21,109 nt of DNA from a virus. The position numbers and the translations under genes were made by a program. The first letter of the stretch is position 1, and each line of letters starts with the position of its first letter. The notes beneath the pieces were generated by a model. It did not search any database. It was not told the DNA's origin and saw only the letters and a list, made by a program, of their open reading frames with translations. Positions 4,531 through 21,109 of the stretch are shown in pieces. The stretch is taken from the IMG/VR virus record IMGVR_UViG_3300045541_000137, positions 1 to 21,109 of that record; one strand, given 5' to 3'.

Positions 4531-5160
4531 TCAGCTTACCCTTTCGCGGAATTGCCCCGAACGGTAGGTGTCCTGCCGCAGCTTGCCGTCGCCCAGCACC
4601 TTGAGGAGGCCAATAGCCTGCACGTAGAGTGTCTGGTACATCTGCACCATGTCCGGCTCGCCCTTCATGAAGCGAATCGCTTCGACCAGCGCGCCATTCA
4701 AAAGCGCCGAATCAAAGTCATCGCCCAGCCATGTGGTGCCAGCGGTAACGATAGACTCCGGGTAATGCCCGTAGACAAACTCAATCGAGTAGGCTGAGTC
4801 GGGCGTCGGCCCGACAATGATGGTGGCTTCGTTGGTAAAGCCGTAGTGCTGCGGAAGCCCGTACGCGGTCGGGGACGGGTAGGCTTCCCGTATAAAGTTA
4901 GCGTCTTTGTTGAGCAGGTATCGGTAATTTCCAGACGCTTCAATCACCGCAAACGAAAACGGGTAGAGAAAATCCGCAGGCAGCGTAAACAGCCGGTTGT
5001 TCAGCGTCAGCGCGCTGGACAGCGTCTTGCGCAACGCGGGAATCTGCACCGTGTTGTAGATTTTTTGTTCAGCCTGCTTGGTGAACATCGCAAGCTGATC
5101 CGCTGTGAATGTGTTTTCACAGATGTCTTGGATGTTAGCCGTCAACTCGGTGTAGTTCAT
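4531..5160 (-). CDS. Connector/tail adaptor-type structural protein, 209 aa
   Basis: The N-terminus (MNYTELTANIQDICENTFTA) is followed by a helix with KQAEQKIYNTVQIPALRKTL, a beta-rich middle (LFTLPADFLYPFSFAVI, YRYLLNKDANFIREAYPSP), a strand pair around IIVGPTPDSAYSIEFVYGHY, and a C-terminal helical segment (FMKGEPDMVQMYQTLY). This pattern resembles head-tail adaptor and tail-tube-terminator proteins seen next to gp4-like connectors in short-tailed environmental phages, where they help join the portal ring to the tail. It starts 7 nt after the preceding small gene, with TTGAGGG just upstream. A structural role is well supported by motif pattern and context; the precise ring it forms is inferred. 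Confidence 0.75.
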   Translation of the reverse strand: MNYTELTANIQDICENTFTADQLAMFTKQAEQKIYNTVQIPALRKTLSSALTLNNRLFTLPADFLYPFSFAVIEASGNYRYLLNKDANFIREAYPSPTAYGLPQHYGFTNEATIIVGPTPDSAYSIEFVYGHYPESIVTAGTTWLGDDFDSALLNGALVEAIRFMKGEPDMVQMYQTLYVQAIGLLKVLGDGKLRQDTYRSGQFRERVS

Positions 5161-5167
5161 ACTGCCC

Positions 5168-5419
5168 TCAAGCCATAGGGCCGCGGGCCATCACGCCCTT
5201 AGTGGCGGCGCCGGTGCCGCGAATCTTCACGCCGGTGGTCTTGACCTTATCTTGCGCTGTCAGCGACACGCCGTCATCCGGATTCCAGCCTTTTTTCTGT
5301 TCGAATGGCACTTCTTTGCCTGCTTTCACAGGCGTCACTTTTTTGCCTTGCATGGTGTGTGGCTCCGCGTAGGTTGAGGCCGCGCCGACTTCTTTGCCCA
5401 TCAGCTTGTGGCTAAACAT
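5168..5419 (-). CDS. Small basic virion-cluster protein, 83 aa, unknown function
   Basis: I start this at the ATG 5419-5417 (MFSHKLMGKEVGAASTYAEP). It overlaps the preceding gene's TAG by 8 nt (ATGTTTAG), the same coupling seen at three other junctions. A longer in-frame extension to 5515 lies wholly inside the neighbouring gene and reads as low-complexity shadow. The product is Lys/Gly-rich and ends KIRGTGAATKGVMARGPMA, a C-terminal pattern I recall from many environmental phage genomes without assigned function. No membrane segment or enzymatic motif is visible. It belongs to the run of small basic genes between the LamG genes and the fibre. Confidence 0.7.
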   Translation of the reverse strand: MFSHKLMGKEVGAASTYAEPHTMQGKKVTPVKAGKEVPFEQKKGWNPDDGVSLTAQDKVKTTGVKIRGTGAATKGVMARGPMA

Positions 5420-5609
5420 TGGTCTTCTGGCCTTTGTAAGCAAAAGACGACTTCTTTTGGTTGGCAACCTTGGCCATACCGCGCCCGAGCTGCTTGCGCT
5501 GGAGGCTGGTGACACCGCCCTTGGCGTAGCCTTTGGCGCTGTGCATGGACTTCTCGTGGGCTTTCACAGCCTTTTTCGCTTCGCCCTTGGCGACTTCTTT
5601 CATACCCAT
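5412..5609 (-). CDS. Small lysine-rich protein with YAKGG module, 65 aa
   Basis: The product starts MGMKEVAKGEAKKAVKAHEK (an amphipathic basic helix) and continues HSAKGYAKGGVTSLQRKQLG and RGMAKVANQKKSSFAYKG. The protein is strongly basic. It carries the [YF]xxGG...R...GxA module also visible in neighbours at 6677, 6916 and 7187. A clear AGGAGAA lies 6-7 nt upstream of the ATG, one of the better ribosome sites of the cluster. Function unknown; DNA or RNA binding or packaging into the virion are possibilities inferred only from charge and gene neighbourhood. Confidence 0.72.
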   Translation of the reverse strand: MGMKEVAKGEAKKAVKAHEKSMHSAKGYAKGGVTSLQRKQLGRGMAKVANQKKSSFAYKGQKTNV

Positions 5610-5619
5610 TTCAATTCTC

Positions 5620-5985
5620 CTAGTTGACTGTCACTTGCCCAACCGCCCCGACTGCTACCAAATCGTTTGGTGTGAGCCCTGCTGCATTTGCTTCCGCGCC
5701 GCCCACAGGATTCCAACCCCACTGTATATCGCGCGAGCCGTTTTGTGCTGATGTGTACACCAGCGACTGGTCCGGGCGGGGTCTGCGCAGTGCCTGCGGG
5801 TCGTCTACCGGGTACATCCCCTGCATGTTCTGCGGGTGGTCTACGCTCCAGCATTCCGGGCACGCCAGCACGTTGGTTTTCTTGGTGCGGACAATCAGTT
5901 CTTTCAGCCGAGGCAGGACGTAACGGAACCCGCAAACATCGCAGAATCCGAATGCCTTTTTGCCTGCGGCGAACCGATTGCCCAT
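5620..5985 (-). CDS. Zinc-ribbon structural-cluster protein, 121 aa
   Basis: The N-terminus MGNRFAAGKKAFGFCDVCGF contains CxxC (residues 15 and 18), and a second CxxC occurs in NVLACPECW (about residues 42-45). The 23-residue spacing suggests a small zinc ribbon. Next come a Pro/Gln-rich QNMQGMYPVDDPQALRRPRP segment and a C-terminal DIQWGWNPVGG with an Ala/Val tail. Similar proteins occur, from memory, beside connector genes of environmental phages; some relatives appear to lack the cysteines. A GAGG ribosome site precedes the ATG and the gene follows the gp4-like connector by 2 nt. A minor virion or connector-associated role is inferred; transcriptional control is less likely given its place in the late operon. 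Confidence 0.72.
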   Translation of the reverse strand: MGNRFAAGKKAFGFCDVCGFRYVLPRLKELIVRTKKTNVLACPECWSVDHPQNMQGMYPVDDPQALRRPRPDQSLVYTSAQNGSRDIQWGWNPVGGAEANAAGLTPNDLVAVGAVGQVTVN

Positions 5986-5987
5986 GG

Positions 5988-6674
5988 TTACCTCGACCTG
6001 AACATGCGTGGCGTCAGTCTTAAGGATGCTTTCTCTCTGTCCTCGCCCGCAGCCAAGTCAAACTGCTCGTCGTAGGCGGCCTTCAGCATCTGAATCCGAT
6101 CCATCAGCGCCGGGTCTTTCTGCGCCAAGTAATAGGCCAACCCGGCCACCAAACACGGCAGGAAACGGAACTGAACGTCCGGGGTCTGAACGCCCGCGCC
6201 CGCGTCCTGAATGCGGCGCATACGCCAATACACCAGCGTGTAGGTCTGGGTGGTGTCGGGCACCGGCCACACGGTCACTTCGGGTGCGTCACGCAGCCGC
6301 TGAACATAAATCTGGATCGGGCGGCCCTGCACGTTTTTGTTGGGGATCGTCGCGTAGGTGGACACACTAATCCGCGAGATGGCCAAGTCAGCCTGCGTTG
6401 AGCCGCTGCCGGTGCGCACGACATGATCGAGCAGATCAATGGTGTCGGCTGGGAGCGGGTATGTGGCCGTGCCGGGCGTGAGCACCTGTGTGCCCTGCTC
6501 GATGGTCCACATATTAATGCCGCGGTTCTGCCACTCAATCGTCAGCAGGTTCATGGACCGCCGAGCGGTTCGCAGGTCATACCCCGAACGCATCTCGCGC
6601 CCAGCACGCTCCCACGCCTCTTCAGCGATTTCAGTGAAATCCAAGTTGAACGCGGTTGTGCCGGATGTGGTCAT
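5988..6674 (-). CDS. gp4-like head-tail connector (head completion) protein, 228 aa
   Basis: The N-terminal part (DFTEIAEEAWERAGREM, YDLRTARRSMNLLTIEWQNR, INMWTIEQGTQVLTPGTATY) is the arrangement typical of P22 gp4-like head completion proteins. These bind under the portal as a ring of twelve, lock packaged DNA in and form the tail platform. A beta-rich middle (ISRISVSTYATIPNKNVQGR, YTLVYWRMRRIQDAG) and a helical C-terminus (LPCLVAGLAYYLAQKDP, then a long helix) complete it. Its length is somewhat above P22 gp4. It follows the preceding small gene after a 2-nt gap. The P22-type portal encoded upstream makes this the expected partner. Confident as a connector; exact orthology to gp4 is by pattern only. 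Confidence 0.8.
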   Translation of the reverse strand: MTTSGTTAFNLDFTEIAEEAWERAGREMRSGYDLRTARRSMNLLTIEWQNRGINMWTIEQGTQVLTPGTATYPLPADTIDLLDHVVRTGSGSTQADLAISRISVSTYATIPNKNVQGRPIQIYVQRLRDAPEVTVWPVPDTTQTYTLVYWRMRRIQDAGAGVQTPDVQFRFLPCLVAGLAYYLAQKDPALMDRIQMLKAAYDEQFDLAAGEDREKASLRLTPRMFRSR

Positions 6675-6676
6675 AA

Positions 6677-6919
6677 TTACCTTTTCGCGGTCTTAGCCGA
6701 CTGTTTGAATGCCGCAGCAGTCGGGGCGCCTTTGGCGCCGGGCTTGCGCATCTTCTCGCCTGAGCCCGCAGCAATGCGTTTGCGCTTGGCGTTGATGTTC
6801 TCGTAAAGCCCGCCCGCGGCATACATGTCCACATCCTGAGGATGATCCTTGCGGACAATCTTCTTGGGTTTAGGCATCTTTTTGGGGTTAATGGCCCCCA
6901 TGCCGCGGCTCGGTCTCAC
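6677..6919 (-). CDS. Small basic protein with YAAGG module, 80 aa
   Basis: The ATG at 6919 overlaps the upstream TGA by 4 nt (ATGA); an internal ATG at 6901 (MGAINPKKMPKPKKIVRKDH) is an alternative start. Next come DVDMYAAGGLYENINAKRKR and IAAGSGEKMRKPGAKGAP, then TAAAFKQSAKTAKR. The protein is very basic and probably extended. The YAAGG...R...GxxG segment aligns by eye with the modules of the genes at 5412, 6916 and 7187. I recall this exact type of ORF as frequent in environmental phages, always unassigned. No enzymatic motif is visible. Confidence 0.72.
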   Translation of the reverse strand: MRPSRGMGAINPKKMPKPKKIVRKDHPQDVDMYAAGGLYENINAKRKRIAAGSGEKMRKPGAKGAPTAAAFKQSAKTAKR

Positions 6920-7185
6920 AGCATCCGCCCTTTGGTTTTGCCGCGCTGGGCGCAGCCGTCAGCTCGCTTGGAGGCAGAGCCCACAGAGCCGCCTTTGGCG
7001 AAAGCCGGCTTGGCTTTCGGCTTGCGCGGAGTCATTTTGGCCGGCGCGCCCTCGTCCGGGGACGGAGGCTGGCCCATCTCGGCGGTGTATACGTCGCGGG
7101 GGCGTTTCACCGGCTTTTTAGGCATCGCGCCCTCGTCCGGAGACGGGGGCTGGCCCATGTCCGCAGTGTAGATGTCGCGGGGCAT
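6916..7185 (-). CDS. Small protein with an internal tandem repeat and GG module, 89 aa
   Basis: The first 46 residues contain two near-identical copies of PRDIYTADMGQPPSPDEGA (residues 2-20 and 28-46; the second has V and E substitutions) joined by a lysine-rich linker. The C-terminal part is FAKGGSVGSASKRADGCAQR followed by GKTKGRML, matching the end of the upstream neighbour (RSADGIAKKGKTK). The repeat half is acidic and proline-rich, the tail basic. It begins 1 nt after the preceding stop (TGACATG) and overlaps the next gene by 4 nt. Function unknown. The repeat suggests a recent duplication and possibly a linear binding motif. Confidence 0.72.
   Translation of the reverse strand: MPRDIYTADMGQPPSPDEGAMPKKPVKRPRDVYTAEMGQPPSPDEGAPAKMTPRKPKAKPAFAKGGSVGSASKRADGCAQRGKTKGRML
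7025..7185 (-). repeat. Tandem in-gene duplication (PRD[IV]YTA[DE]MGQPPSPDEGA)
   Basis: Two DNA segments of about 57 nt, at roughly 7048-7104 and 7126-7182, encode the two protein repeats. They keep high nucleotide identity, for example GCCCTCGTCCGG and GGCTGGCCCAT in both on the plus strand. The intervening 21 nt encode the MPKKPVK/R linker. Differences are few, indicating a young duplication or conversion between the halves. Confidence 0.8.
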
Positions 7186-7186
7186 G

Positions 7187-7558
7187 TCAGCACTTCCCGC
7201 CGGACTTCATGGCGATCTGTTTGGCTTTGGTCTTGCCTTTCTTGGCAATGCCGTCAGCAGAGCGGGTAAAGCCGCCAGCAGAGTAGCCTTTGGCGCCCTT
7301 CTTCATGCCTTTGGTTTCGGCCTGCTCGTGCTTGACCATGGCTTTGGGGGCGCCTTTAGCTTTCATAAAGGCCACTTCCTTCTTCATCATCGCTTTGGAT
7401 TCTTTCATGTCACCGCCCTCGTTGAATTTGCGGCCCTTGTCGGCCTTTACGAACTCTTTTCCAACCGACTGCGGAACACCAACACGCTTGGCCGCTGCCG
7501 GATCATTGGCCACCATGGCCATCAAATTGTGCTGCTTTTGCGATTTAGACGGCATCAT
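7187..7558 (-). CDS. Small Lys/Met/Gly-rich protein with GG module, 123 aa
   Basis: The start MMPSKSQKQHNLMAMVANDP is followed by AAAKRVGVPQSVGKEFVKAD, a lysine/methionine-rich helix (MKESKAMMKKEVAFMKAKGA PKAMVK), and then GYSAGGFTRSADGIAKKGKT with a KSGGKC end. The N-terminal region (KxQxxxMxxVANDPxxAKRVGVPQSVGKEF) is, from memory, a widespread motif in phage proteins of unknown function. The C-terminal module matches the gene at 6916. The ATG overlaps the holin-like gene's TGA by 4 nt; a second ATG follows immediately. The terminal GGKC with a single cysteine is unusual. Confidence 0.74.
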   Translation of the reverse strand: MMPSKSQKQHNLMAMVANDPAAAKRVGVPQSVGKEFVKADKGRKFNEGGDMKESKAMMKKEVAFMKAKGAPKAMVKHEQAETKGMKKGAKGYSAGGFTRSADGIAKKGKTKAKQIAMKSGGKC

Positions 7559-7740
7559 TTACCCCGAATTTTCCTAACCAAACCGCGTACGGTATCGGTT
7601 TCGATTATGCGGATGGCAGTCCAAACAATTGTAAACACTGCGGCAATAGATGGCAGCATATCGACTAGGGTTCCAACCACAGTCACAATTGATAAAGCAT
7701 CAACCACGTGCTTTACCGTTTCACTTGTCGCTTCGCTCAT
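7555..7740 (-). CDS. Holin-like small membrane protein, 61 aa
   Basis: After a short polar start (MSEATSETVKHVV), residues about 14-26 (DALSIVTVVGTLV) and about 29-46 (LPSIAAVFTIVWTAIRII) are hydrophobic. They are separated by an Asp-Met-Leu-Pro turn, and the protein ends with the basic VRGLVRKIRGK. This hairpin of two membrane segments with a basic cytoplasmic tail is the usual form of small class II-like holins. From memory it resembles the DAxSxxTVVxTLVDMLPxIxxxFTIVWTxIRIxE family annotated as holin in environmental phages. It overlaps neighbours on both sides by 4 nt. It sits away from the endolysin, and a second candidate exists at 618-788, so which one triggers lysis is open. Confidence 0.75.
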   Translation of the reverse strand: MSEATSETVKHVVDALSIVTVVGTLVDMLPSIAAVFTIVWTAIRIIETDTVRGLVRKIRGK

Positions 7741-8009
7741 TTACAACCCCACCGTTTAAGACTAGCAGCCTTGCGTGTTGGCCGCCCTTTTTCATCTTTC
7801 ATCGGGCCGGGCATTCCGCTCATTCTTGAGCAAAACGACTTCTTGCGGCCAGCATCTGCTTTGGTTTTCGGGTTCGGCGCCGGAGCCTTGAGGTTGGACC
7901 CCGTAGCCGCGTTATAACGCGCACGGCCCTTGGCGGTGAGCCCAGCACCTTGCGATGCCGGTAGCTTCTCGCCACGACCTACCGCCAAAGACACATTTTT
8001 CTTAGCCAT
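7737..8009 (-). CDS. Small basic protein with KSFCxRMSGM motif, 90 aa
   Basis: The product starts MAKKNVSLAVGRGEKLPASQ and continues GLTAKGRARYNAATGSNLKA, a Pro/Lys-rich linker, RKKSFCSRMSGMPGPMKDEK and RPTRKAASLKRWGCK. Two cysteines (in SFCSRM and RWGCK) flank a basic segment. From memory, the LTxKGRAxYNxATGSNLKAPxPxP...KSFCxRMxGMPGPMKDxKGxPTRKxxxLxxWxC pattern is highly conserved among environmental phages yet unassigned. The protein is strongly basic, suggesting nucleic-acid or membrane contact. It overlaps the upstream gene by 8 nt (ATGGCTAA) and the holin-like gene by 4 nt. Confidence 0.75.
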   Translation of the reverse strand: MAKKNVSLAVGRGEKLPASQGAGLTAKGRARYNAATGSNLKAPAPNPKTKADAGRKKSFCSRMSGMPGPMKDEKGRPTRKAASLKRWGCK

Positions 8010-8387: not shown

Positions 8388-9203
8388 CTACACCGTCGGG
8401 GGTAGAGATTTATAGGGATGGCCTGCGGGCAGATTGGCTTCCAAGCCCCACTTCCACGCGAGGTAGCCTTCAACGCGCTGACGCACCGCCGTCGATAAAG
8501 CGGATTGAGTAATCACAATCTCGCCAATTGATGCGTTCAGCGGGGACGAGCCTGTTGCAAAGGCCCCTATGGTGTGGTTGGTAGTGGCCGAGTTGCGATC
8601 TACAGTCTGAACAGTGTTGGTAATAGAGCCGCCGTTTTTGTTGCCGTACAGCGTTGAGACGCTGTTGTCATACACAGCCCCGTAAAATTCCGGCCCGAGC
8701 GCGATGACACCGCACGATCCGCCATAGCTTACCCACCACGAACCCATGACGGCGGGGGTAGTAGAAATCGCCGCTAGATAGTTGGCGGTGCCGACCCCAG
8801 CTGACGTGCCCGCCCCCACAACAAACTGCGGGGATGTCGCATCCCACTTTATCGCCACAAACATGCTGTAACTACTATCGCCAGCCGGGATAGTGCCGTC
8901 GGGCAGAAGCATGATGTCATTGGTGCCGTCAAACTTGATTCCAGGCTTGCCATTGATCGCCGTGGCCGTGTAAGTCGGTTGGTTTGTGGCAGTGGCTTGC
9001 GCTGCATTTCGCCCATTGCCAGACTTATCAGCCCACTGGCTGACAGTTGCCCCGTTGAGCGTAATGGTGCTGGTATCTTCAGCATCGAGCCACAGCGCGG
9101 TAGCGAGTTCAGTCGGTCGCCACAGCTTAGGCCCACCAAACAGCGTGCCATCCCACCGATAGGGGTGGTCATACGGGAGTTGCGTGACTAATTCCATCGG
9201 CAT
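8388..9203 (-). CDS. LamG/ConA-like lectin-fold virion protein (paralogue 2), 271 aa
   Basis: After an N-terminal segment with LPYDHPYRWDGTLFGG, the product carries LATALWLDAEDTSTITLNGA, then TVSQWADKSGNGRNAAQA and a FDGTNDIM segment. These are hallmarks of LamG/concanavalin-like jelly-roll domains that bind glycans. The C-terminus (RQRVEGYLAWKWGLEANLPA, GHPYKSLPP) is the full-length ending of this family. It is a paralogue of the adjacent upstream gene. In a virion such a domain could bind cell-surface sugars or decorate the capsid or fibre. It begins 1 nt after the preceding stop (TGATATG). Fold and duplication are well supported; carbohydrate binding and virion location are inferred. Confidence 0.78.
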   Translation of the reverse strand: MPMELVTQLPYDHPYRWDGTLFGGPKLWRPTELATALWLDAEDTSTITLNGATVSQWADKSGNGRNAAQATATNQPTYTATAINGKPGIKFDGTNDIMLLPDGTIPAGDSSYSMFVAIKWDATSPQFVVGAGTSAGVGTANYLAAISTTPAVMGSWWVSYGGSCGVIALGPEFYGAVYDNSVSTLYGNKNGGSITNTVQTVDRNSATTNHTIGAFATGSSPLNASIGEIVITQSALSTAVRQRVEGYLAWKWGLEANLPAGHPYKSLPPTV

Positions 9204-9204
9204 A

Positions 9205-9924
9205 TCAGAACCCTCCCCACTTCCAAGCTAAGTAGCCTTCGAGTAGTTCTCTCTCCGCTTTTGTAGAGTCGTTTGGCGTAGCTACAATTTCAACCATTGG
9301 GCCGCCGTGAATATAATTAACAGTTTTAGCCAATCTAGGAGCTGCCAAAAATGCGTTAGCGCCGCAAACCGCAAGGATGAATTTAGTGGCACTTCTTGTC
9401 CAAAACGTCCCTCGGGACATTGTTGGCGATGCGTTCTTATCCTTAATCATCGCCCCCGAAAAATACGATGACAAGGTGGCTGGATCATTAATTCCGCCAG
9501 AGCGAAACAAATTAACACTCGTTATAGAAGTCGCTGATATCGGAAAATAATCTTGAATCCCAACCGATCCAATAAGCGTTTGAGTTACCCCTGCCCCCGT
9601 TCTCTGGGCAACGATATACCAGCTCCACCCCGCGCCAGTCCAGTTTGACCCCGCAGTTAAATCATCGTCGACGCCATCAAATATGATGGCAGGGGACGCC
9701 ACCCATCCTGTCATGGCATAGGTTGGCTGTAAGCCAGCCGCGGCTTGGGAAAAATTCCGCCCATTGCCCGACTTATCGCGCCACTGGCTCACCGTCGAGC
9801 CATTGAGCGTGATCGTGCTGGCGTCGGCGGCGTCGAGCCACAGGGCGGTTGATATCTGCGCGGGCGTCCACGCTCCACGAAAGCACGGGTGTGCCGGTAA
9901 CGAGAAGCCGAAGCCGAAGCTCAT
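9205..9924 (-). CDS. LamG/ConA-like lectin-fold virion protein (paralogue 1), 239 aa
   Basis: The product contains ISTALWLDAADASTITLNGS followed by TVSQWRDKSGNGRNFSQAAA and IIFDGVDDDLTAGSNW, the same jelly-roll signature as its downstream neighbour. It ends early: LLEGYLAWKWGGF and stop, where the paralogue continues for about 15 more residues through NLPAGHPYKSLPP. The middle is diverged, and its DNA is visibly AT-richer than flanking genes, suggesting separate acquisition rather than a very recent copy. It overlaps the preceding stop by 1 nt (TGATG). Likely a surface-exposed virion protein with glycan-binding potential. The short C-terminus may be functional or a truncation. Confidence 0.77.
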   Translation of the reverse strand: MSFGFGFSLPAHPCFRGAWTPAQISTALWLDAADASTITLNGSTVSQWRDKSGNGRNFSQAAAGLQPTYAMTGWVASPAIIFDGVDDDLTAGSNWTGAGWSWYIVAQRTGAGVTQTLIGSVGIQDYFPISATSITSVNLFRSGGINDPATLSSYFSGAMIKDKNASPTMSRGTFWTRSATKFILAVCGANAFLAAPRLAKTVNYIHGGPMVEIVATPNDSTKAERELLEGYLAWKWGGF

Positions 9925-10194: not shown

Positions 10195-10728
10195 TTAAGC
10201 GTCAGCGAACGGAGTGACAACAGACCCAGAGCCGAGCAGCACGCCTTGCACGAGGTATTCGAGCGAAGACAACGCGGTGATGGTGATGACCGAGCCAACG
10301 GCGCCGCCTGTGGTGCTGCCGTCAAGGTTGATGACGTCGTTGGACGCAGCAGGGGCGAATCCAATGGTTGCGCCAGAAGAGTCCGTGTCCACCACCAGCA
10401 AAGAGCCGATAAATTTGTCGGTGCCGTCAGTCTTGATGGCCACAGCAGTCGCTGCGGTATCAACCACGATGGTGTAGGTGGTGCCGATGTTGTTCAGCGT
10501 GTTAGGGTCAGAGCCGGGGCCGGATGTCACCGGATCAGCCGTGGCGATGATCGCCGGCAGCGTCAGAATCAGCGTCGCGTCGTTGGTGCGGATCACCTTG
10601 CCAGCGTGAGCGGCAACGGTCAGGGAGAGCGTATTGGTGCCGTTAACGACGTTAACGACAGAGCCGGGGCCTTGGGCGTAGAAGCCGTTCAAGGAGCGGA
10701 CCGGACCTTGGAAAGTGGTGGTAGGCAT
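10195..10728 (-). CDS. Beta-rich head/decoration-type structural protein, 177 aa
   Basis: The start at ATG 10728-10726 (MPTTTFQGPVRSLNGFYAQG) is preferred. It overlaps the TAA of the homing-endonuclease gene by 1 nt (TAATG) and has AAAGGA upstream; an in-frame extension to 10791 would lie inside that gene. The protein has small-residue-rich strands: SVVNVVNGTNTLSLTVAAHA, GKVIRTNDATLILTLPAI, a middle with TYTIVVDTAATAVAIKTDG, and an end LSSLEYLVQGVLLGSGSVVT. Such proteins, with LTxAxHAGKxIxxxxAxxxLTLPA, are common in virion gene clusters of environmental phages. A capsid-surface or fibre-base role is inferred. Alternatives cannot be separated by sequence alone. Confidence 0.75.
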   Translation of the reverse strand: MPTTTFQGPVRSLNGFYAQGPGSVVNVVNGTNTLSLTVAAHAGKVIRTNDATLILTLPAIIATADPVTSGPGSDPNTLNNIGTTYTIVVDTAATAVAIKTDGTDKFIGSLLVVDTDSSGATIGFAPAASNDVINLDGSTTGGAVGSVITITALSSLEYLVQGVLLGSGSVVTPFADA

Positions 10729-11318
10729 TAAAGCATTCCTTTCAAATGAACATACTTGAGCGCCAATTTTCTTGCCGAACTGGTACAACACCCAACTTGT
10801 CGACCGCGCTCAGCGTACGACAGATGGTCATTTTCTACCAAAAACTTGATCTTTGCCCGGTAATTCGCGTCCGAGAAATATCTTCGCAACTGAGCATCCG
10901 ATAGGCGTTTTCTAAATTCGGGCTCAGCGTAATCAAAAACCGTTGCCCGTCGCCCTTCGCTAATGCGTTTGCGCACTTCGTCGGAATGCGTTTTATTCCG
11001 CATCGGGGCTTTGGAAAAATCAGCAATGTTGTAGGCTACCCGCTCGTCAAAAAACGCTTCGCCATTCAAAAACGCTTCTTCGATTACGTCCAAGTCAGAA
11101 ACGTTTTCGCAAATAACTTCTATCGAAGCAACAAAACTGTCGGCCCCATCTCGGTTATAAGTGCGCTGCAACTTAATGTTTGGGTGCTTTTGCCAACGTA
11201 AAAGTCGAAAATGCTCTCTAAGCCGTTTGTGCAAATTCTGGGATTGCCCTACATAGCACTTGCCTGAGCGCACATGAACGATCTTATAAATGCCCGCGAG
11301 TTTTGTGCTGTATGGCAT
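10728..11318 (-). CDS. Free-standing GIY-YIG homing endonuclease, 196 aa
   Basis: The N-terminus has the GIY-YIG core: AGIYKIVHVRSGKCYVGQSQ (GIY at about residues 9-11, YVG at about 22-24), followed by the conserved Arg in NLHKRLREH. The catalytic Glu is probably in the VIEEAFL segment at about residues 78-82. The middle carries KTHSDEVRKRISEGRR, a NUMOD3-like DNA-binding repeat, and the C-terminal RGRQVGCCTSSARKLALKYV looks like a helix-turn-helix-type recognition segment. These enzymes nick or cut DNA at a homing site to spread their own gene. It is AT-richer than its neighbours and has its own promoter (11358-11386). It sits between the capsid terminator and the next virion gene, with no visible intron. 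Confidence 0.88.
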   Translation of the reverse strand: MPYSTKLAGIYKIVHVRSGKCYVGQSQNLHKRLREHFRLLRWQKHPNIKLQRTYNRDGADSFVASIEVICENVSDLDVIEEAFLNGEAFFDERVAYNIADFSKAPMRNKTHSDEVRKRISEGRRATVFDYAEPEFRKRLSDAQLRRYFSDANYRAKIKFLVENDHLSYAERGRQVGCCTSSARKLALKYVHLKGML

Positions 11319-11523: not shown

Positions 11524-12435
11524 TTAGTTGCTGCCGGGCGAACCAAAGATGCCGAGCGGGTCAGACACACCGAACGAATAACGCTCGCGGGCCTTGTAGC
11601 GGGTGTTGCCGGTGTCAAAATCACCGTCCATTCCGGTTTGCATCGGAGTACGGACGAAGTGCTTCAGGCCATTCGGCACGTCGGTCAACAGGAACCATGC
11701 GTTGGTGTCCGTCAGCCAGTGGTTGACAGAGTAACCTTCGGGGATGGAACCGTTGTTCTTCAGTGCGTTGATGTCGTTGTCGGCGGTGCCAACACGCAGC
11801 TCGGTCTCAAGGAGACGAGTTGCAACGAACATCAGCGACGGCGGGACGACCAGCTTGCGGGGCTTGGCAGCGATCAGCAGACCGCGCTCATCCGTCCAGC
11901 CAGCGATCTGAATGACAGCGGCCTCAAGCGAGGTCTCATTCAGGTCAGCGCCCGTCGTGGGACGGTTGCTGTTGATGCCACCAGAAATCAGGGGGTGGTC
12001 GGTGGCGCACAGAACCTTGCCGTCACCGTAGGTGGGGCCGCCCGTGAAGGCTTGGTTCAGGATGGAGGCAGCCTTGACCTGCTTGGTGTAGGCCATGGCA
12101 CGAGCCAGCGCCTTGGTATAACGAGCCGAGAGGCTGTCATACAGATTGTCTTCAATCGCTTCTTCAGTGATCGAGAAACCCATGGCGATGGTTTCGTGGT
12201 TGTAGCGCGCAGTCCATGCTTCTTGCGCGTTGTCGTAACGAATGGCGGAGCCTTCGTTTTTGACCGGAGCTGCGGAGAAACCGGACAGCTTGGTTTCTTC
12301 TTCGAACGAACGCTCGGAAGTTTCGGTTTCGAAAATTTCCTTGTGTTCTTCGCCGTAGCGCTTGTACTCCAGACCGAACAACGCATTCAGGCCGGGCAGG
12401 AGTTCCTTGAGTAGCTGGGCACGAGAAATTGCCAT
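11524..12435 (-). CDS. Major capsid protein, HK97-fold / gpT-like, 303 aa
   Basis: The protein forms the icosahedral shell. Its start (MAISRAQLLKELLPGLNALF) leads into an acidic N-arm-like region (YGEEHKEIFETETSERSFEE), then VKNEGSAIRYDNAQEAWTAR and YNHETIAMGFSITEEAIEDN. A helix follows with YTKALARAMAYTKQVKAASI, then the DERGLLIAAKPRKLVVPPSL region. This follows the pattern of Mu gpT-like head subunits with HK97 fold, at usual length. TAAGGAGAG lies upstream, combining the previous gene's stop with a strong ribosome site, and a strong terminator follows. Position right after scaffold and decoration genes supports the call. No separate protease is visible nearby, so scaffold removal may not need one. 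Confidence 0.88.
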   Translation of the reverse strand: MAISRAQLLKELLPGLNALFGLEYKRYGEEHKEIFETETSERSFEEETKLSGFSAAPVKNEGSAIRYDNAQEAWTARYNHETIAMGFSITEEAIEDNLYDSLSARYTKALARAMAYTKQVKAASILNQAFTGGPTYGDGKVLCATDHPLISGGINSNRPTTGADLNETSLEAAVIQIAGWTDERGLLIAAKPRKLVVPPSLMFVATRLLETELRVGTADNDINALKNNGSIPEGYSVNHWLTDTNAWFLLTDVPNGLKHFVRTPMQTGMDGDFDTGNTRYKARERYSFGVSDPLGIFGSPGSN

Positions 12436-13094: not shown

Positions 13095-13529
13095 TTATGT
13101 TCCGGTACCGAAAGTAACCTTCGACTTGCGCTCATTAAAGAGCGGCATCCGAGGATCATTTTCACGCATGAGATTGTTGTCGACCGAACGCATCTGATTT
13201 TCCGCTTGCGTGCGATAGAACGCGTCACGGTCATCAGCCATTTCGGTGGGGATTTTGCACAGCATCAGCCCACCAATCACGATATTGTCGCGGTGCTTGT
13301 CGCTTTCGACAGCCGCGAGCTGAATCTCGGGGTGTGCAGACGCTTTGACCGGTTCCCAACCTTCACGAAGCTTGGAAGAAACGTTCATGGGGTCAGCTTG
13401 ATTCATCGTGGACATGCGTATCCAGCGAAACACATAACCCGGTTCAGGGTTAGGATCAGGCAGCAGGGACGCAGGAGCCCAACGGCGCTTGCGCGCGGTC
13501 ATTTCACGTGAATTTCTGTTCTCAGCCAT
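13095..13529 (-). CDS. Conserved-type head-cluster protein, 144 aa, unknown function
   Basis: The product begins MAENRNSREMTARKRRWAPA and contains GYVFRWIRMSTMNQADPMNV, SSKLREGWEPVKASAHPEIQ and a strand VIGGLMLCKIPTEMADDRDA. It ends with a basic RKSKVTFGTGT. The RWIRxSTxxQxDxxNVSSKLREGWEPVxA core is, from memory, widely conserved next to scaffold and capsid genes of environmental phages. The protein has a basic N-terminus and an aromatic core and lacks membrane or catalytic motifs. It overlaps the scaffold stop by 8 nt (ATGGCTGA). A head-assembly or inner-surface role is inferred from the neighbourhood. Confidence 0.72.
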   Translation of the reverse strand: MAENRNSREMTARKRRWAPASLLPDPNPEPGYVFRWIRMSTMNQADPMNVSSKLREGWEPVKASAHPEIQLAAVESDKHRDNIVIGGLMLCKIPTEMADDRDAFYRTQAENQMRSVDNNLMRENDPRMPLFNERKSKVTFGTGT

Positions 13530-14460
13530 TTTGTTTCCTCATGTCTTCAGCAACCTGTCGGGCGTATTGTTCCAAAGTCAAACCGAGCCGCTTGGCTATG
13601 GCCTGTTGCGATGTCGTTAGCACGATTTTTCGGGGCGCAGTGGTACGAGTCGCAGGAGCCACCACCGTTTTGCGACGGGGTTTCTCTTCTGGTTCAGATT
13701 CCTCGAACTGGTCGGGGAACACTTGGCGCATACGACGGTTGATGGCGTCGTAGTATTCGTCGGAGCGAGGGTCAACGCCCTGCTTAACCAATTTCTGGTG
13801 CAGCCCCAGCGCGAAGCTCGTCATCTCATCATCGGACCCAAACCACGGATTTTCTTGCTGCCACGCAGTGACTTTGGGATCGACCTGATTCTGCGGCTGT
13901 GCCGGAGCGGTGTACTTATTTTCTACAGCAGTTTCTTCCTCTTGTAAAGCAGGAAGTGCGAAGTTAGCTACCCGATCCGCCTTAAGCTTTGCTGAAGTGA
14001 GCGACTCCTGTGCAGACGTGACCTTATCAGGATCACCCTCCTCGTATGCAGCGCGGAATTGCGCCTTGGCTTGCTCAAGCTCAAAAGTCGCGGCACGCTT
14101 AGCCTGCTCAAGTAGCGCCTCTTGGTTCTGGTTGACGGTCTGCTTAAGCTTCTTGTTTTCTTCGATGATGTTTTGCGCAAGGCGTAGTGCTTCCTCGCGC
14201 TCCCGTAGGGCAGCTTCTTTGGCTCTACGTTCGTCGTGATAGCCGCGAGTAAAGTGCTGGATACGCTTCTTAACCTTCTCGGAGTAGCCCTCCAGCTCAT
14301 CATCAGTCACCTCGGGCGGCGGCTCAGCAGGCGTGCGCCCGCGGTCCTTGGCCGGCGTGTCGTCGACAACCTCAACTTCAAACCCGTCATCAGGGGTCTT
14401 GGCGTCTTCCTTGTCGGGATCAGGAAACTCAAACTCTACTTTTTCCATGGGCATATTCAT
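13522..14460 (-). CDS. Capsid scaffolding protein, 312 aa
   Basis: The product is highly charged. An acidic N-terminus (MEKVEFEFPDPDKEDAKTPD, then EVEVVDDTPAKDR) is followed by a long coiled coil (about residues 60-175: YSEKVKKRIQHFTRGYHDER, EREEALRLAQNIIEENKKLK). Next come a linker and ENPWFGSDDEMTSFALGLHQ, and the C-terminal third is basic (EEKPRRKTVV, then TSQQAIAKRLGLTLEQYARQ), as expected for a capsid-binding tail. This is the classic scaffold plan, and the gene lies between portal-side genes and capsid. It overlaps the preceding gene by 4 nt. The C-terminal TSQQAIAKRLGLTxEQYARQ recurs, from memory, in environmental phage scaffolds. Confidence 0.82.
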   Translation of the reverse strand: MNMPMEKVEFEFPDPDKEDAKTPDDGFEVEVVDDTPAKDRGRTPAEPPPEVTDDELEGYSEKVKKRIQHFTRGYHDERRAKEAALREREEALRLAQNIIEENKKLKQTVNQNQEALLEQAKRAATFELEQAKAQFRAAYEEGDPDKVTSAQESLTSAKLKADRVANFALPALQEEETAVENKYTAPAQPQNQVDPKVTAWQQENPWFGSDDEMTSFALGLHQKLVKQGVDPRSDEYYDAINRRMRQVFPDQFEESEPEEKPRRKTVVAPATRTTAPRKIVLTTSQQAIAKRLGLTLEQYARQVAEDMRKQNG

Positions 14461-14699
14461 TCCTTACCTTGCAGTTTGCTTTCGAGCTCGTGAATACGGT
14501 CTCTCAAATACGAAATGTAGTGATCTTGCTCGGCAGACCGCTTTTTGAAAATGCGCTCCATCTCGCGGACTCTTAAAATCAGGGCTTGGGCCTGCCCTTG
14601 CATGCGAGCCATCTCGTACAGAAAAAACTCGTCTGTCGTGCCGTCGCAGGTTACGGACACCGTATCGCTGGGCGGGTCCCACTTCATATCCATGCTCAT
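14457..14699 (-). CDS. Small coiled-coil protein of head-assembly cluster, 80 aa
   Basis: The product is MSMDMKWDPPSDTVSVTCDG, then DEFFLYEMARMQGQAQALIL and a long heptad-rich helix (RVREMERIFKKRSAEQDHYI, SYLRDRIHELESKLQGKE). The N-terminal part is extended, the C-terminal 55 residues predicted coiled coil. Starts and stops overlap both neighbours by 4 nt (ATGA), so expression is coupled to the GroES-like and scaffold genes. The role is unknown; an assembly cofactor interacting with the scaffold is a guess from shape and position. The internal ATG at 14693 is an alternative start. Confidence 0.68.
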   Translation of the reverse strand: MSMDMKWDPPSDTVSVTCDGTTDEFFLYEMARMQGQAQALILRVREMERIFKKRSAEQDHYISYLRDRIHELESKLQGKE

Positions 14700-15061
14700 G
14701 GCCGGCTGATGCCGCGTGGGTCAGTGACAACGGCTTCAATGCTGTCGTCAGACATGAGGCGGTACTCCACCCCCCGGAATGTGAACCGTGTGCCGCTGTT
14801 GCTGCGGAACATCACGTAGTCACCTGCGTGACACCACGGCCCATGCGGAAACCGGTCCGTGTCTTTGTATGCCTGCGGCCCCATGTCGAGCACCAGCCCA
14901 ATGGTCGACAGCACTTTTTCGTAGTGAACCGTCTTGGCGTCTTTGACGATGCCTGATTCGTAGGTTTCTTCGACCTGTGGCAGGGCGATCAGCAGCATGT
15001 AACCAACGGGTTTTGGCAGTTGGTTTTCGATTTCTGCTTCGGTGTATTCCGGTTCAGTCAT
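14696..15061 (-). CDS. GroES-like co-chaperonin-type protein, 121 aa
   Basis: The start chosen is the ATG at 15061 (MTEPEYTEAEIENQLPKPVG), which overlaps the previous stop by 8 nt (ATGACTGA); an earlier ATG at 15088 would add nine residues. Next come YMLLIALPQVEETYESGIVK, a segment ending in VLDMGPQAYKDTDRFP, and HAGDYVMFRSNSGTRFTFRG, then MSDDSIEAVVTDP. This follows the order of the GroES/Cpn10 fold: N-terminal strand, flexible mobile loop at about residues 30-45, central VxxxGxxxY, and GDxVxFxxxxGxxFxxxGxEYxLMxDDxIxAVV near the end. Phage co-chaperonins such as T4 gp31 replace host GroES to fold capsid protein. Position beside portal, scaffold and capsid fits. The canonical GroES IVL mobile-loop tripeptide is not evident. 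Confidence 0.75.
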   Translation of the reverse strand: MTEPEYTEAEIENQLPKPVGYMLLIALPQVEETYESGIVKDAKTVHYEKVLSTIGLVLDMGPQAYKDTDRFPHGPWCHAGDYVMFRSNSGTRFTFRGVEYRLMSDDSIEAVVTDPRGISRP

Positions 15062-15251
15062 TGTCTTGGCCCATGTAAGTCTGCTCAAGGTCTGCGATTG
15101 CTGCCATTGCGTGAGTCAGACCCCGGACGACCCCACACAACTCCTTGTACGTGGCGTAGTCGGCTACCTTGCCCTCGGCAAGGTAGTTTTGTACGCGCAA
15201 TATCTCGTCCTCCAGATTGTCTTGGAGGGCGCCAAACACTGTCTTAGCCAA
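15054..15251 (-). CDS. Small helical protein between portal and co-chaperonin, 65 aa
   Basis: The product is MAKTVFGALQDNLEDEILRV, then QNYLAEGKVADYATYKELCG and VVRGLTHAMAAIADLEQTYM ending GQDND. It is all helix and rather acidic. The GxVxDYATYKELCGVVRGLxxA segment is, from memory, recurrent in small phage proteins near portal genes, without known role. It starts directly after the portal stop and overlaps the GroES-like start by 8 nt, so translation is coupled. No catalytic motif. Confidence 0.7.
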   Translation of the reverse strand: MAKTVFGALQDNLEDEILRVQNYLAEGKVADYATYKELCGVVRGLTHAMAAIADLEQTYMGQDND

Positions 15252-17738
15252 TTACTTCTCCTTTTTTGTTTTCTGCTGCACTACGGTTTTCATCAGGTCC
15301 ATCTTCAGGCGGTCAGCGTGCTGCTTGTCTTGGGACTGCATCTGCGCACCGGTTTTCTGCGCGTCGAGCGCGAGCTTCTGTTCCTCAAGAGACAGGCGGC
15401 GGTCAGCCTGCTTGGCATCGAGCGCGTCCTTCTGAGCCTTACGCTGGATGTCTTGCTGCTTGACCTGCAACTCTTGCTGCTGAATCTGCAACAGCGGGTC
15501 TTGCGCTTGCGCTTGCGCCTGCTGCTGCGCCGCCTGACTCTGGTGTATCTGCTGGAGCTGCTTGGCTGCGTCTGCGACGAGGCGGGAGAGCTGCACCTCG
15601 AACTCCTCGGGCATGGGCTGGTCTGGCGGGGGCAGGGGCACACCGAGGCGTTCCTCGATCTGCTTGCGGTAGCTGTAGCCCAAGTGTTCTGCGACGTGGG
15701 CCATGATGGCAGCCTGCATCTGCTGGGCCATGGGATTCTGGCCGATAGTGGCGCCGATCATCGGGTCCTGAATAAACGTCATGTGCGCTGTGATGTGCGC
15801 GTCGTGGTCTTGGTAGATGAACGCTTTGACCGGCTTGCCCACGAGCACTGCCATGTTCTCGGAGATCGGGTCCCGCGGGGTCTGGTCCTCGGGCATGGGC
15901 AGTATCTTGTCGGCGTTTTTTACACCCAGCACCTCGATCATCTGCCTGTGCAGATACGGCAGGTCGTAAATCTGCGGCGCTGCCTGCGCCATCTGCATGA
16001 TGGCTTGGTACTGCACCACCCGCTGGGCCATGGTGGAGCTGTTGGGGTCGCTGACCGGGATAACCTCAGTGGTGGCGTAGTCCTCGCGCCGTGCGCGCCG
16101 GGTCGCGTGTGCGGGCTCGTAGTCGTAGCTTGTGGGGGCGTACTCCGCGATGATCGACTTGAGCAGCTTAAACTCCTGCTTCATGGCGTAGTGCACACGC
16201 GCCTGCACGGCAGCCATGGGCTTGAGGGTGCGCTCCAGAATAGCCAGCGTGGTGCCCACCGGGGCGTTAGCCGACATGTCGCTTACGTTAAGATCGCTGA
16301 TCGCACCTAAACGTCGGCCTTCTTCGGTGATCTGGTTGAGCAGAGCGAGCAGCACTTGGCTCGGCTCTTTGTACGGCAGGGGCATGATGTTGTCGCGGAT
16401 GGCCCCCGAGGGGATGTCCACGTCCCGGAACTCTCCGGGGGCGATGGGCGTGTCGTCGCCCTTGATACGCATACCGCGGGCTTTGAGCCCGCCCGGCAAG
16501 TTGTTCAGTGTGCCCGCGTCCACCAGCTGACGGATGATGCTTGTGCCTGCACGCGCGTAGCCGCCGATGATGTGGATGAGGCCGAGTCCGTAGAACCCAA
16601 AGCCGATCACGTACGGGTAGTGTACGAAGTGCTGGCGCTTGAGCGGTGTGGGTGTGGGCCGCTGGGTCGCAGTCCCCGTGGGATGCTCGGGAGAGGGCAG
16701 GTGGGGCTCCCAGTTACGGCGGATAGACAGGACAGTCTGCGTGCCTTTGTCGATGGTCACCACGTACGGTGAGGGCAGGGCCACGGCGGAGGGAGATTCG
16801 GCACCATCAAACCCGGGCACGATAAGGTCTGCGTGGCACTCGAACACAGCGTACCGGTTGTCATCGGTGAGCGTGTAGCCTGCGTCCTCGGCTTTCTTGG
16901 TTTCGAGGTCGGTGTGGTACGACCGTGGCTCGCCCAAGTCGACGTCCCGGTAGAAGCCCGACGCCTGCAACTTCTGCATCTCCAGCTTGGTTTTACGCAT
17001 CACGTGGGTGACCCGCTCGGCATTGCCGAGGTCGGTGGCGCCCCATGGCACGATTACATCTTCAGCCGGCACGGTGATGCTGACCTGCCTGTCGAGGTTG
17101 GGGTCAAAGTACACCTTCTTAAAGACACTGCCAGCCAGCGCGAGGTTAAACAGCGCACGCTCGTGCTCGGTACGGTACTCGGTCATGACTTCCGTGATCT
17201 GGTAGTTCATGTCGTCACGCACACGCTCCGCAGCCTTCTCTTTCTCTGGCGTGGGGTCTCCGAGGATCATGGTCTTCACGGGGCCGGCAGCAGGGAAGGT
17301 CTCCTGCATGGTCTCGGCTTGGAACCGAATGGCAGCCTCCGACAGGACTGCGCTGTAGACGCCGCAGGCATCTTCCCACGGCTCCATGCGCTCTTCGTAC
17401 TTGAACCCAAGCACTTCCAGCCCTTTAACGTAGGTCTCGACCCACTCCTTCCGGGACTGAATGTCTGTCTCAACTTCGTCGATCAGGTCCGAGGCCAGCG
17501 TAGACAGGGTGTCTTCGTCGAGGTAGTCGGCAAGGTTGGCATCGAAGGGGATGGTGGAGTCGGAGTCGTCGCCAAAGTCGGGGGTGCGAGCGGGGGCAAG
17601 ATCAATCTCAACCGAGCCGTCTTCAAGCTCGACAACGGTGGGTTCGGCGTCGTCAAAGGCAAGCTCAAGCTGGAAGGGCTCGGAGCCGCCGGGTGGGAGG
17701 TCGGAGGGGGTTAATGCCTTGTCAACGTTTGTTGCCAT
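15252..17738 (-). CDS. Portal protein, P22-type, 828 aa
   Basis: The portal forms the twelve-subunit ring at the head vertex through which DNA is packed and ejected. The start is the ATG at 17738 (MATNVDKALTPSDLPPGGSE), which has AAGGA upstream and overlaps the preceding gene by 17 nt; a longer reading from 17825 lies inside that gene. The protein has an acidic N-terminal region (residues 20-75), a core with FKYEERMEPWEDACGVYSAV, a wing region, and a stem/clip segment with GFYGLGLIHIIGGYARAG and TSIIRQLVDAGTLNNLPGGL. A helical part with SANAPVGTTLAILERTLKPM follows. The C-terminal ~130 residues are Gln-rich coiled coil (QQQELQVKQQDIQRKAQKDA), a plausible barrel. The large size is typical of podovirus portals. 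Confidence 0.87.
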   Translation of the reverse strand: MATNVDKALTPSDLPPGGSEPFQLELAFDDAEPTVVELEDGSVEIDLAPARTPDFGDDSDSTIPFDANLADYLDEDTLSTLASDLIDEVETDIQSRKEWVETYVKGLEVLGFKYEERMEPWEDACGVYSAVLSEAAIRFQAETMQETFPAAGPVKTMILGDPTPEKEKAAERVRDDMNYQITEVMTEYRTEHERALFNLALAGSVFKKVYFDPNLDRQVSITVPAEDVIVPWGATDLGNAERVTHVMRKTKLEMQKLQASGFYRDVDLGEPRSYHTDLETKKAEDAGYTLTDDNRYAVFECHADLIVPGFDGAESPSAVALPSPYVVTIDKGTQTVLSIRRNWEPHLPSPEHPTGTATQRPTPTPLKRQHFVHYPYVIGFGFYGLGLIHIIGGYARAGTSIIRQLVDAGTLNNLPGGLKARGMRIKGDDTPIAPGEFRDVDIPSGAIRDNIMPLPYKEPSQVLLALLNQITEEGRRLGAISDLNVSDMSANAPVGTTLAILERTLKPMAAVQARVHYAMKQEFKLLKSIIAEYAPTSYDYEPAHATRRARREDYATTEVIPVSDPNSSTMAQRVVQYQAIMQMAQAAPQIYDLPYLHRQMIEVLGVKNADKILPMPEDQTPRDPISENMAVLVGKPVKAFIYQDHDAHITAHMTFIQDPMIGATIGQNPMAQQMQAAIMAHVAEHLGYSYRKQIEERLGVPLPPPDQPMPEEFEVQLSRLVADAAKQLQQIHQSQAAQQQAQAQAQDPLLQIQQQELQVKQQDIQRKAQKDALDAKQADRRLSLEEQKLALDAQKTGAQMQSQDKQHADRLKMDLMKTVVQQKTKKEK

Positions 17739-17997
17739 TTTTAATCCTTGCTCGATTTGTTGTGGGGTCGTAGGCGAACGCAGAGGCGGGCTTGCCCGTG
17801 CCACGGGCAGCTCTGTCCAACGCACGCTCTTCGGCGGTCATCTGGTCGCGGGCTTTGCCCGCAGGTGTAAGTTTTTCCGTGCCGGGGTAGAGGTGCCCTC
17901 GGTCTTGCAGGATGGCAACGGCACGGGCACGGTCGCCTACTTGAGCAGCCAGCCGGTCAATCAACTGGTTACGCCCCATGAACTTCTGGGTAGCCAT
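17722..17997 (-). CDS. Small conserved-type protein between TerL and portal, 91 aa
   Basis: The product is MATQKFMGRNQLIDRLAAQV, then GDRARAVAILQDRGHLYPGT, an acidic/basic helix with GKARDQMTAEERALDRAARG, and SAFAYDPTTNRARIKNGNKR. The MGRNQLIDRLAAQVGDRxxAxxILxxRGH motif is, from memory, common next to terminase/portal genes of environmental phages. The first half looks helix-turn-helix-like and the tail is basic, so DNA binding is possible but not shown. Its ATG shares 1 nt with the TerL stop (TGATG), and it overlaps the portal start. The first amino acids after MATQKF may be the preferred register. Confidence 0.72.
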   Translation of the reverse strand: MATQKFMGRNQLIDRLAAQVGDRARAVAILQDRGHLYPGTEKLTPAGKARDQMTAEERALDRAARGTGKPASAFAYDPTTNRARIKNGNKR

Positions 17998-20462: not shown

Positions 20463-21109
20463 ATGGAAGTTATTAAGACAATGCCCGAACGCTTGCTAGT
20501 GCAGGCCTACGGTGAATTTGCTAACGCTGGCACTGCCGTGGCGCAAGCCGCTGCACGTGCCGACACTGAGCGCACCCGCATCATCCAGCGATTGCTTGAT
20601 TATGCGAAGAGCGAAGGGATCGCGCCCAAGGTCGCCGTATCCGGCATCATGGAAAAGGTGGTGCTGCCATGCACCCTTACCAAAGCCGAACAGCAAGCCG
20701 GGGTTACCCCGTTGGCATCTGGCAAGCTGGCCTATTCGACCGGGCAGGCATACGCGAAGAGCATGGATGTTGCCATGCTTAAGGGCAAGCCCTTTGCACC
20801 CGGTTTATACGCTGCGCACCTGAAAGAGGCGCAGGGTCTGCGCGAAGCGGCGCATGCTGAAAAGCTGGCGAAAGCCGAAGCCGAAGCCGCGGAAAAGGCG
20901 AAGGCCGCGAAGGCCGCTGCAACCAAGGCCGCGAAAAGCAAGAGCGAGGATGCGAAGCTGGCCGCGGCACAGGCAAAGCTTGAGGCGGACAAAGCGCAAG
21001 CGGAAGTGCGCAAGGCCATCGATGCTGCGCCTGTGTCTCAGAAAACCGGAGGCAGGAAAAAGACAAAGGTCGAACCCGCGAAGGTTCTCACGCGTCATGA
21101 AGTGGCACT
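20463..21109 (+). CDS. Early-type Ala/Lys/Glu-rich protein, unknown, 3'-partial
   Basis: The reading frame is open from ATG 20463 to the window edge (215 codons without a stop). The first ~120 residues (MEVIKTMPERLLVQAYGEFA, AQAAARADTERTRIIQRLLD, YAKSEGIAPKVAVSGIMEKV) look folded and helical, with a single visible cysteine (VVLPCTLTK). From about residue 120 the protein becomes a long Ala/Lys/Glu heptad-like region (EKLAKAEAEAAEKAKAAKAA), then a basic stretch (QKTGGRKKTKVEPAK). Such tails often bind nucleic acids or form coiled coils. It is the only rightward gene and has a consensus promoter and good ribosome site, so early expression is likely. I do not recognise the family. Confidence 0.75.
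   Translation, partial: MEVIKTMPERLLVQAYGEFANAGTAVAQAAARADTERTRIIQRLLDYAKSEGIAPKVAVSGIMEKVVLPCTLTKAEQQAGVTPLASGKLAYSTGQAYAKSMDVAMLKGKPFAPGLYAAHLKEAQGLREAAHAEKLAKAEAEAAEKAKAAKAAATKAAKSKSEDAKLAAAQAKLEADKAQAEVRKAIDAAPVSQKTGGRKKTKVEPAKVLTRHEVA

Follow-up and report, generated by a model that had tools for sequence, protein, structure and literature searches.

Two small genes in a 21,109-base viral contig (IMG/VR record IMGVR_UViG_3300045541_000137; hereafter the window, meaning the whole stretch that was analysed) encode proteins that end in the same basic C-terminal tag, and all of the genes considered here are on the minus strand. Directly supported are the tag itself, its C-terminal position, its occurrence behind many unrelated bodies, the swapping of bodies and tags, selection on the peptide, a fixed gene position and near-restriction to one podovirus lineage. 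By analogy with known systems, the tag may be a docking signal by which small, rapidly changing proteins come to lie within the virion, a reading to which we give about equal belief and doubt. The two genes and their parts, with matches to a hidden Markov model (HMM) of the tag, are:

6916..7185, minus strand: tagged protein of 89 aa, a body with two DVYTA[DE]MGQPPSPDEG-like repeats followed by the C-terminal tag
6916..7002, minus strand: C-terminal tag of type T1, FAKGGSVGSASKRADGCAQRGKTKGRML-stop; tag HMM match
7187..7558, minus strand: tagged protein of 123 aa, made up of an N-module, a helical KEVAFMK module and the tag, with the joints FNEGG and YSAGG
7418..7555, minus strand: N-module MPSKSxxQHNxMAxVANxPxxAKxVGxPQSVGKxF (phrog_16759, E 6.5e-18, residues 2–47)
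7310..7411, minus strand: middle module DMKESKAMMKKEVAFMKAKGAPKAMVKHEQAETK between two xxGG hinges, conserved in a 26-row alignment; two helices
7187..7285, minus strand: C-terminal tag, long variant, YSAGGFTRSADGIAKKGKTKAKQIAMKSGGKC-stop; tag HMM match, with the GGKC-type end conserved in relatives

The first-pass annotation of the window had proposed that at least four tiny genes share one module, a [YF]xxGG motif followed by basic residues and a Gly-x-Ala, as a common handling signal. All four motifs are present, YAKGG at residue 28 of 5412-5609, YAAGG at residue 33 of 6677-6919, FAKGG at residue 62 of 6916-7185 and YSAGG at residue 92 of 7187-7558, and the last gene has an additional hinge, FNEGG at residue 45. 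A Gly-x-Ala follows the motif in three of the four genes and is missing after YAAGG in 6677-6919. The further claim that 6916-7185 and 7187-7558 have ADG[CI]A[QK][RK]GKTK in common is correct, and their common consensus can be written GG...RADGIAxRGKTKGK[MI][VI]-stop. Both have a GG hinge, a DG[ICV]Ax[RK]GKT[KR] core and a position near the C-terminus, the three features of type T1, but 5412-5609 and 6677-6919 carry two other modules behind the same hinge and have no tag-hit annotation. Hence, a single module common to all four genes had to be rejected, and the idea of a shared tag as a handling signal is well supported for 6916-7185, 7187-7558 and well over 100 relatives with the same C-terminus, varied and swapped bodies and a selected peptide, but not for 6677-6919 and 5412-5609.

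The relatives were retrieved from IMG/VR using two window proteins, and are metagenomic and partly redundant. Among 11,107 open reading frames (ORFs) in 160 sequences, the tag HMM gave 335 matches of at least 20 bits each, while shuffled proteins all scored below 10 bits and reversed proteins peaked at 11 bits. In the unique small basic proteins of the relatives, [RKHS][GA]xG[AICVL][AC]x[RK]G occurs 247 times against 0.55 in shuffles, and 244 of these occurrences begin in the last 45 residues. The profile search thus did not return mere Lys/Gly background, the outcome that the first-pass annotation had named as refuting its idea, and composition was rejected as the source of the motif. The distance from the tag's end to the stop is one residue in 181 of the 335 matches and 8–13 residues in most of the others, as in the long variant of 7187-7558. 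The bodies that remain when the tag is removed (≥25 residues) form about 56 clusters. The tag also stood out when 2,016 unique genes were clustered by their last 14 residues without use of the motif: it was the clear outlier, with 133 members and 58 body clusters, followed among groups with many bodies by the family of the neighbouring gene 5168-5419, ending RGTGAATKGVMARGPMA, with 13 body clusters.

The tag is strongly basic (net charge +6.5 on average over 28 residues and in every case at least +3), and this charge, together with the hinge and predicted disorder, would suit non-specific binding of phage DNA (or RNA) by an RGK-type peptide, such that the proteins coat or condense the DNA or act in the cell and no protein receptor is involved. 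However, GG, D, G, G, K and T do not vary in the tag and A hardly does, and conservation of the non-basic ones among them (GG, D, G, T and nearly A), as well as the near-restriction to one lineage, points to a specific partner; we therefore consider a general nucleic-acid-binding tail unlikely. The predicted disorder comes from an AlphaFold2 model of 7187-7558, which has helices at residues 7–18, 20–26, 30–41, 49–67 and 72–83 with disordered joints and tag, though at a mean pLDDT of 59.9 only residues ~10–40 are reasonably confident.

In 15 larger relatives, whose TerL, where present, is 46–86 % identical to that of the window, the gene order is largely kept: portal, GroES, scaffold, major capsid protein (MCP), DUF6321, a hydrophobic protein, the N-module/tag gene, one or more further tagged genes, the 6677 family, the adaptor, g5620, and the 5412, 5168 and 4531 families. 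Each of these contigs has two to four significant tag matches, within a few kb between the capsid genes and the adaptor. A scan with the tag-only DNA pattern DGIAx[RK]GKT[KR], made without window proteins, matched at least 120 contig stretches, and among the matches listed 115 contigs had tag HMM hits, 112 of which carry the same podovirus lineage markers. Judged from these sequences, the tag appears to be found almost only in one podovirus lineage, of widespread tail-bearing viruses of bacteria that are mostly freshwater and largely uncultured. Bacterial genomes gave no host assignment; four contigs were confirmed, three of them with genes of this phage lineage. A Patulibacter metagenome-assembled genome contig (L160:6584-8425) has the tag in frame behind a bacterial-looking membrane protein near the contig edge and is probably an assembly chimera.

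This setting also bears on whether the tag might act outside the mature particle, either recruiting the proteins to a host target or chaperone (phage GroES/host GroEL, a host protease or the membrane) or working only in the procapsid, with the proteins absent from mature virions. The operon also has a conserved GroES gene and the bodies vary as host-interacting proteins do, but the genes lie in the late operon among structural genes, and the tag is conserved across very divergent TerL, hence probably across different hosts with differing partners. We regard a host-acting or assembly-only signal as quite unlikely.

Tags on unrelated bodies share a mean of 77.5 % identity. Where the bodies are homologous, identity is 85.4 % in the tags and 62.1 % in the bodies, and in 137 of 165 pairs conservation is higher in the tag. 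When tags within one genome were compared, identical residues differed in codon at a frequency of 0.537, against 0.548 expected from random codon choice (observed/expected 0.89, confidence interval 0.82–0.97, in another set-up), and no pair of tags within a genome had identical codons throughout. Synonymous codons are thus nearly saturated, which argues that it is the tag peptide, not the tag DNA, that selection keeps. Recent tandem duplication or gene conversion of the tag is likewise disfavoured by the codon divergence. The peptide could nonetheless have no role if the tag DNA were kept as a crossover site for cassettes, or were a recently duplicated gene end. One crossover does fall at the start of a tag, as set out below, and in some swapped pairs the tag DNA is >80 % identical, but in many others it is only about 45–60 % identical and, given codons close to random choice and no codon-identical pair within genomes, we find a recombination anchor hardly credible.

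The crossover in question was seen when the window was compared with its closest relative (L002/G001, TerL 86 % identical). The DNA aligns to approximately the end of 7187-7558 and resumes at 7003, the first base of the 6916-7185 tag, with no similarity in the intervening body, and the relative has an unrelated 119-aa tagged gene in place of 6916-7185. The body of 6916-7185 itself was found in few relatives (e.g. L016). More generally, among 213 canonical tags from related contigs, the bodies were non-homologous in 12 of 58 pairs when the 300 bases downstream were 90–98 % identical, in 28 of 50 at 80–90 % and in 181 of 192 at 70–80 %, though pairs are not independent events. Tags are exchanged as well: a body family marked by YRKPT...EGEKD was found with at least four different tags, RADGCAVRGKTKGKMV, TSKGQGRVIRSKKTRIC (also in the isolate DSL-LC04), SVRGQGAARKTKGCKIC and ARGYGISKVTNKTKYC, nearly always behind an xxGG joint.

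The hinge is not confined to tagged proteins. [YF]xxGG is present in 39.2 % of unique small basic proteins of the relatives versus 3.9 % in composition-preserving shuffles, and [YFLM]xxGG lies just upstream of 190 of 220 tags, 12 of 13 LYxNI modules and all 79 LGRGMAKVANQ modules. In the window it precedes at least three modules, the tag (6916-7185 and 7187-7558), LYxNIxAKRKRI (6677-6919) and QxKxLGRGMAKVANQ (5412-5609). From this distribution, [YFLM]xxGG is a joint between modules and not itself a module.

If the tag is a docking signal, a basic, disordered tail about 25 residues long behind the [YFLM]xxGG hinge would bind one lineage-specific virion component, for which the gene position suggests the portal, the adaptor/nozzle channel or the scaffold as candidates. 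We favour docking on one component because a conserved, disordered, basic C-terminus is found on several non-homologous proteins, next to structural genes, in one lineage. Any small protein placed ahead of the tag would then be built into the particle, and the tag is carried by two to four genes in the interval from capsid to adaptor. The N-module may count for virion docking too. It stands at the N-termini of jumbo-phage virion proteins and of the 'virion structural protein' families phrog_22033 and phrog_25121, phiKZ gp165.1 is 74 % identical to it over residues 2–44, and in BUCT555 and phiKZ N-module genes adjoin portal, capsid or structural-protein genes. The location in the virion, the binding partner, ejection and the roles of the bodies are what we infer; gene position and analogy make head packaging plausible.

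A close analogy is with the internal proteins IPI–IPIII of T4, which are small, have divergent bodies and share a short terminal peptide (CTS) required for head entry; the bodies vary between related phages, and IPI at least counters host restriction (PMC9026906). T4 thus illustrates how one targeting peptide allows bodies to vary and serve host take-over. The tag resembles the CTS in being a short terminal peptide common to otherwise different small phage proteins, but the CTS is N-terminal, about 10–20 residues long and cleaved by the gp21 protease, whereas the tag is C-terminal, about 25 residues long and has no known cleavage; head entry is established for the CTS and would be an extrapolation for the tag. 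Cleavage at the GG, raised in the first-pass annotation, found no support. Among the subset of window proteins scanned against PHROGs there is no separate protease, and matches of the MCP include fused major head/protease families. In SPN3US, a C-terminal propeptide of the prohead protease has been proposed to target the protein into the prohead (PMC7411985), but it has 64 residues, is cleaved, belongs to one protein and comes from an unrelated phage group.

T7 offers a second arrangement. In gp7.3, C-terminal residues 84–98 hold the protein on the nozzle where this meets the adaptor, and the basic N-terminus encloses the end of the DNA; the anchor is resolved in the structure, the body is not, and gp7.3 and gp6.7 are both ejected (PMC11784390). 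C-terminal docking with a basic part at the DNA is therefore a workable arrangement. T7 genes 6.7 and 7.3 immediately precede gene 8, and the tagged genes, like those of these two small virion proteins, are near the portal/adaptor in the late operon. Kinship was not detected: gp6.7 had no tag HMM score and gp7.3 scored -1.8 bits, with 128 of 200 shuffles as good. A narrower form of virion docking follows from this comparison, in which the tagged proteins would be a tail-channel plug, a gasket at the nozzle or adaptor that holds the DNA end, with bodies that are unconstrained filler and have no action in the host. The neighbouring adaptor and possible nozzle gene, the resolved anchor and unresolved basic body of gp7.3, and the low proportion of hydrophobic residues in tagged bodies (20.6 % versus 29.7 % in other genes) agree with this. 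However, each phage has two to four different tagged proteins, a set of exchangeable bodies where gp7.3 and gp6.7 are single proteins, whole bodies are replaced rather than drifting, and there is no sequence similarity to gp7.3. We view the plug as doubtful.

The fast replacement of whole bodies leans instead towards interaction with variable hosts. Under the docking reading, the bodies would probably travel with the DNA and enter the host early, perhaps to assist ejection or to act against host defences. They are mostly low in hydrophobic residues and change fast, in some cases through a swap of precisely the body. In its fullest form this would amount to combinatorial cargo: a fixed locus beside the head-tail junction, with two to four genes whose bodies are rapidly exchanged and whose common tag (or alternatives in sister lineages) directs them to one virion site; the proteins would enter the host together with the DNA, as an exchangeable stock that acts early. 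This extension is possible, but we hold it tentatively.

Several observations weigh against virion docking. We found no virion proteomics or structure for any tagged protein; T7 gp6.7 and gp7.3 fail the tag HMM; the basic character of the tag means that nucleic-acid binding would explain much; and the body-swap counts carry the dependence among pairs noted above. In addition, the isolates HTVC023P and CRP-901 have no T1 tag in the regions read and DSL-LC04 has an alternative tag, though the MCPs are 57–66 % identical, and therefore the tag is not needed to build such heads. These three and Planktothrix phage Pag-Yong1, of the Pam1/Pag-Yong1/HTVC023P/CRP-901 type of podovirus, are the phages in which the shared capsid-adaptor gene set was seen. 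Of the isolates, Pag-Yong1 carries a divergent T1 tag on UMO75986.1 (26.7 bits), the body of which had no relatives in IMG/VR. DSL-LC04 ends a body of the YRKPT...EGEKD family with the alternative tag, on WJZ48065.1. Neither the bare 28-aa consensus nor one 181-aa tagged protein matched any isolate by tblastn, a weak negative since Pag-Yong1 carries a divergent tag. HTVC023P gp32 and gp51 (L204:9873-10610 and 20698-21081) end in RGxGAAxRGxxFxGV[FK], possibly an analogous pelagiphage signature. A common origin of the tag with the RGxGAAxRG pelagiphage endings and the GTGAATKG of 5168-5419, suggestive by eye, is not supported, the tag HMM scores being equalled by many shuffles, and a match of Cygsa01 to the HTVC023P ending is antisense to annotated genes and was taken as chance.

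Genes were called with a simple purpose-written caller, and names such as nozzle and scaffold on unlabelled genes are assigned from position and weak profile matches. The remaining genes of the cluster and its surroundings are:

17997-19499, minus strand: TerL
15252-17825, minus strand: portal
14696-15088, minus strand: GroES
13522-14460, minus strand: scaffold-like protein, named from position and weak profile matches
11524-12435, minus strand: MCP
8009-6677, minus strand: run of tiny genes between MCP and adaptor
7737..8009, minus strand: DUF6321 protein of 90 aa (PF19846, 88.1 bits against a Pfam gathering cut-off of 28.5)
7555..7740, minus strand: 61-aa protein with one hydrophobic segment, often a neighbour of tagged genes
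6677..6919, minus strand: 80-aa protein with a RGMGAINPKKMP N-part, YAAGG hinge and LYENINAKRKRIAAGSGEKMRKPGAKGAPTAAAF module
5988..6674, minus strand: head-tail adaptor of SU10/Pam1 type (PF24175, 52.2 bits, cut-off 27; DSL-LC04 homologue annotated as Pam1 adaptor), a near neighbour of the tagged cluster
5985-5168, minus strand: second run of tiny genes, past the adaptor and followed by the virion protein 4531-5160 and a tail fibre
5412..5609, minus strand: 65-aa protein with the YAKGG hinge and a SLQRKQLGRGMAKVANQ module; 174 relatives in IMG/VR
5168..5419, minus strand: 83-aa protein ending KIRGTGAATKGVMARGPMA, a second recurrent C-terminus (n=78, 13 body clusters)
4531..5160, minus strand: virion protein near the adaptor (phrog_2941, virion structural protein, E 4.8e-13), perhaps the nozzle or a second adaptor

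Successive tiny genes overlap by 4 bases at 7737/7740, 7555/7558 and 6916/6919, a pattern of translationally coupled operons. The most probable start of the ORF 5168-5515 is the ATG at 5419 (83 aa), which is also the start called in the window, and relatives have similar lengths; its product has no tag HMM similarity (score -1.1). Elsewhere in the window, a GIY-YIG-like gene at 10728-11318 (GIYKIV...CYVGQS, by eye) adjoins the cement-like g10195 and is perhaps a homing endonuclease, and 8388-9203 and 9205-9924 encode tandem paralogous lectin-like proteins (LamG/ConA-type by eye) not recognised at the same position in the mapped relatives.

Several of these modules are already catalogued. The protein of 6677-6919 matches phrog_16028 (E 3.3e-24, residues 36–80; 61 phage records), a family common to cyanophages, pelagiphages and roseophages, and in the relatives its family has an RGMGAINPxKMP...YAEGG front followed by the LYxNI module, a GQWSARKAQ...YKxxGGGYRD module or both. 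A HNH endonuclease gene directly adjoins the phrog_16028 gene in DSL-LC05 (L164:6950-7443) and CRP-804 (L166:5019-5398), and Synechococcus phage S-RIP2 (L165:4983-5495) has the LYANI module at the start of a 170-aa protein, the rest of which resembles, by eye, a signal peptide followed by an outer-membrane-like sequence. DUF6321 is itself fused to the tag in three relatives (L139, L145 and L163); in the T4-like cyanophage ACG-2014f (L266:2360-4192), a 610-aa protein between the gp16 and gp17 terminase genes ends in it. DUF6321, phrog_16028 and phrog_16759 are thus catalogued small basic modules without assigned function, which occur by themselves or at the ends of larger phage proteins, and none is the tag. 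Ten diverse tagged or related proteins yielded little apart from DUF6321 when scanned against Pfam and PHROG, the tag matched no PHROG profile, and the C-terminus of 6916-7185 and 7187-7558 and the 5412 module are uncatalogued in the profile libraries. We found no published description of the tag or of DUF6321. Hence, the first-pass suggestion of an undescribed system stands for the tag within the literature and databases searched, but not for the three catalogued families.

If the tag is a virion-loading signal, it would load cargo into a podovirus head or tail as a small C-terminal peptide that is apparently not cleaved. It would also provide a sequence handle on proteins that uncultured phages deliver from the virion and that could not be recognised otherwise, as their bodies share nothing, and the tag-terminated bodies would form a list of candidate injected proteins. 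Isolates carrying the tag or a sister tag exist in Pag-Yong1 and DSL-LC04, and comparison with sister lineages that use alternative tags could identify the receptor.

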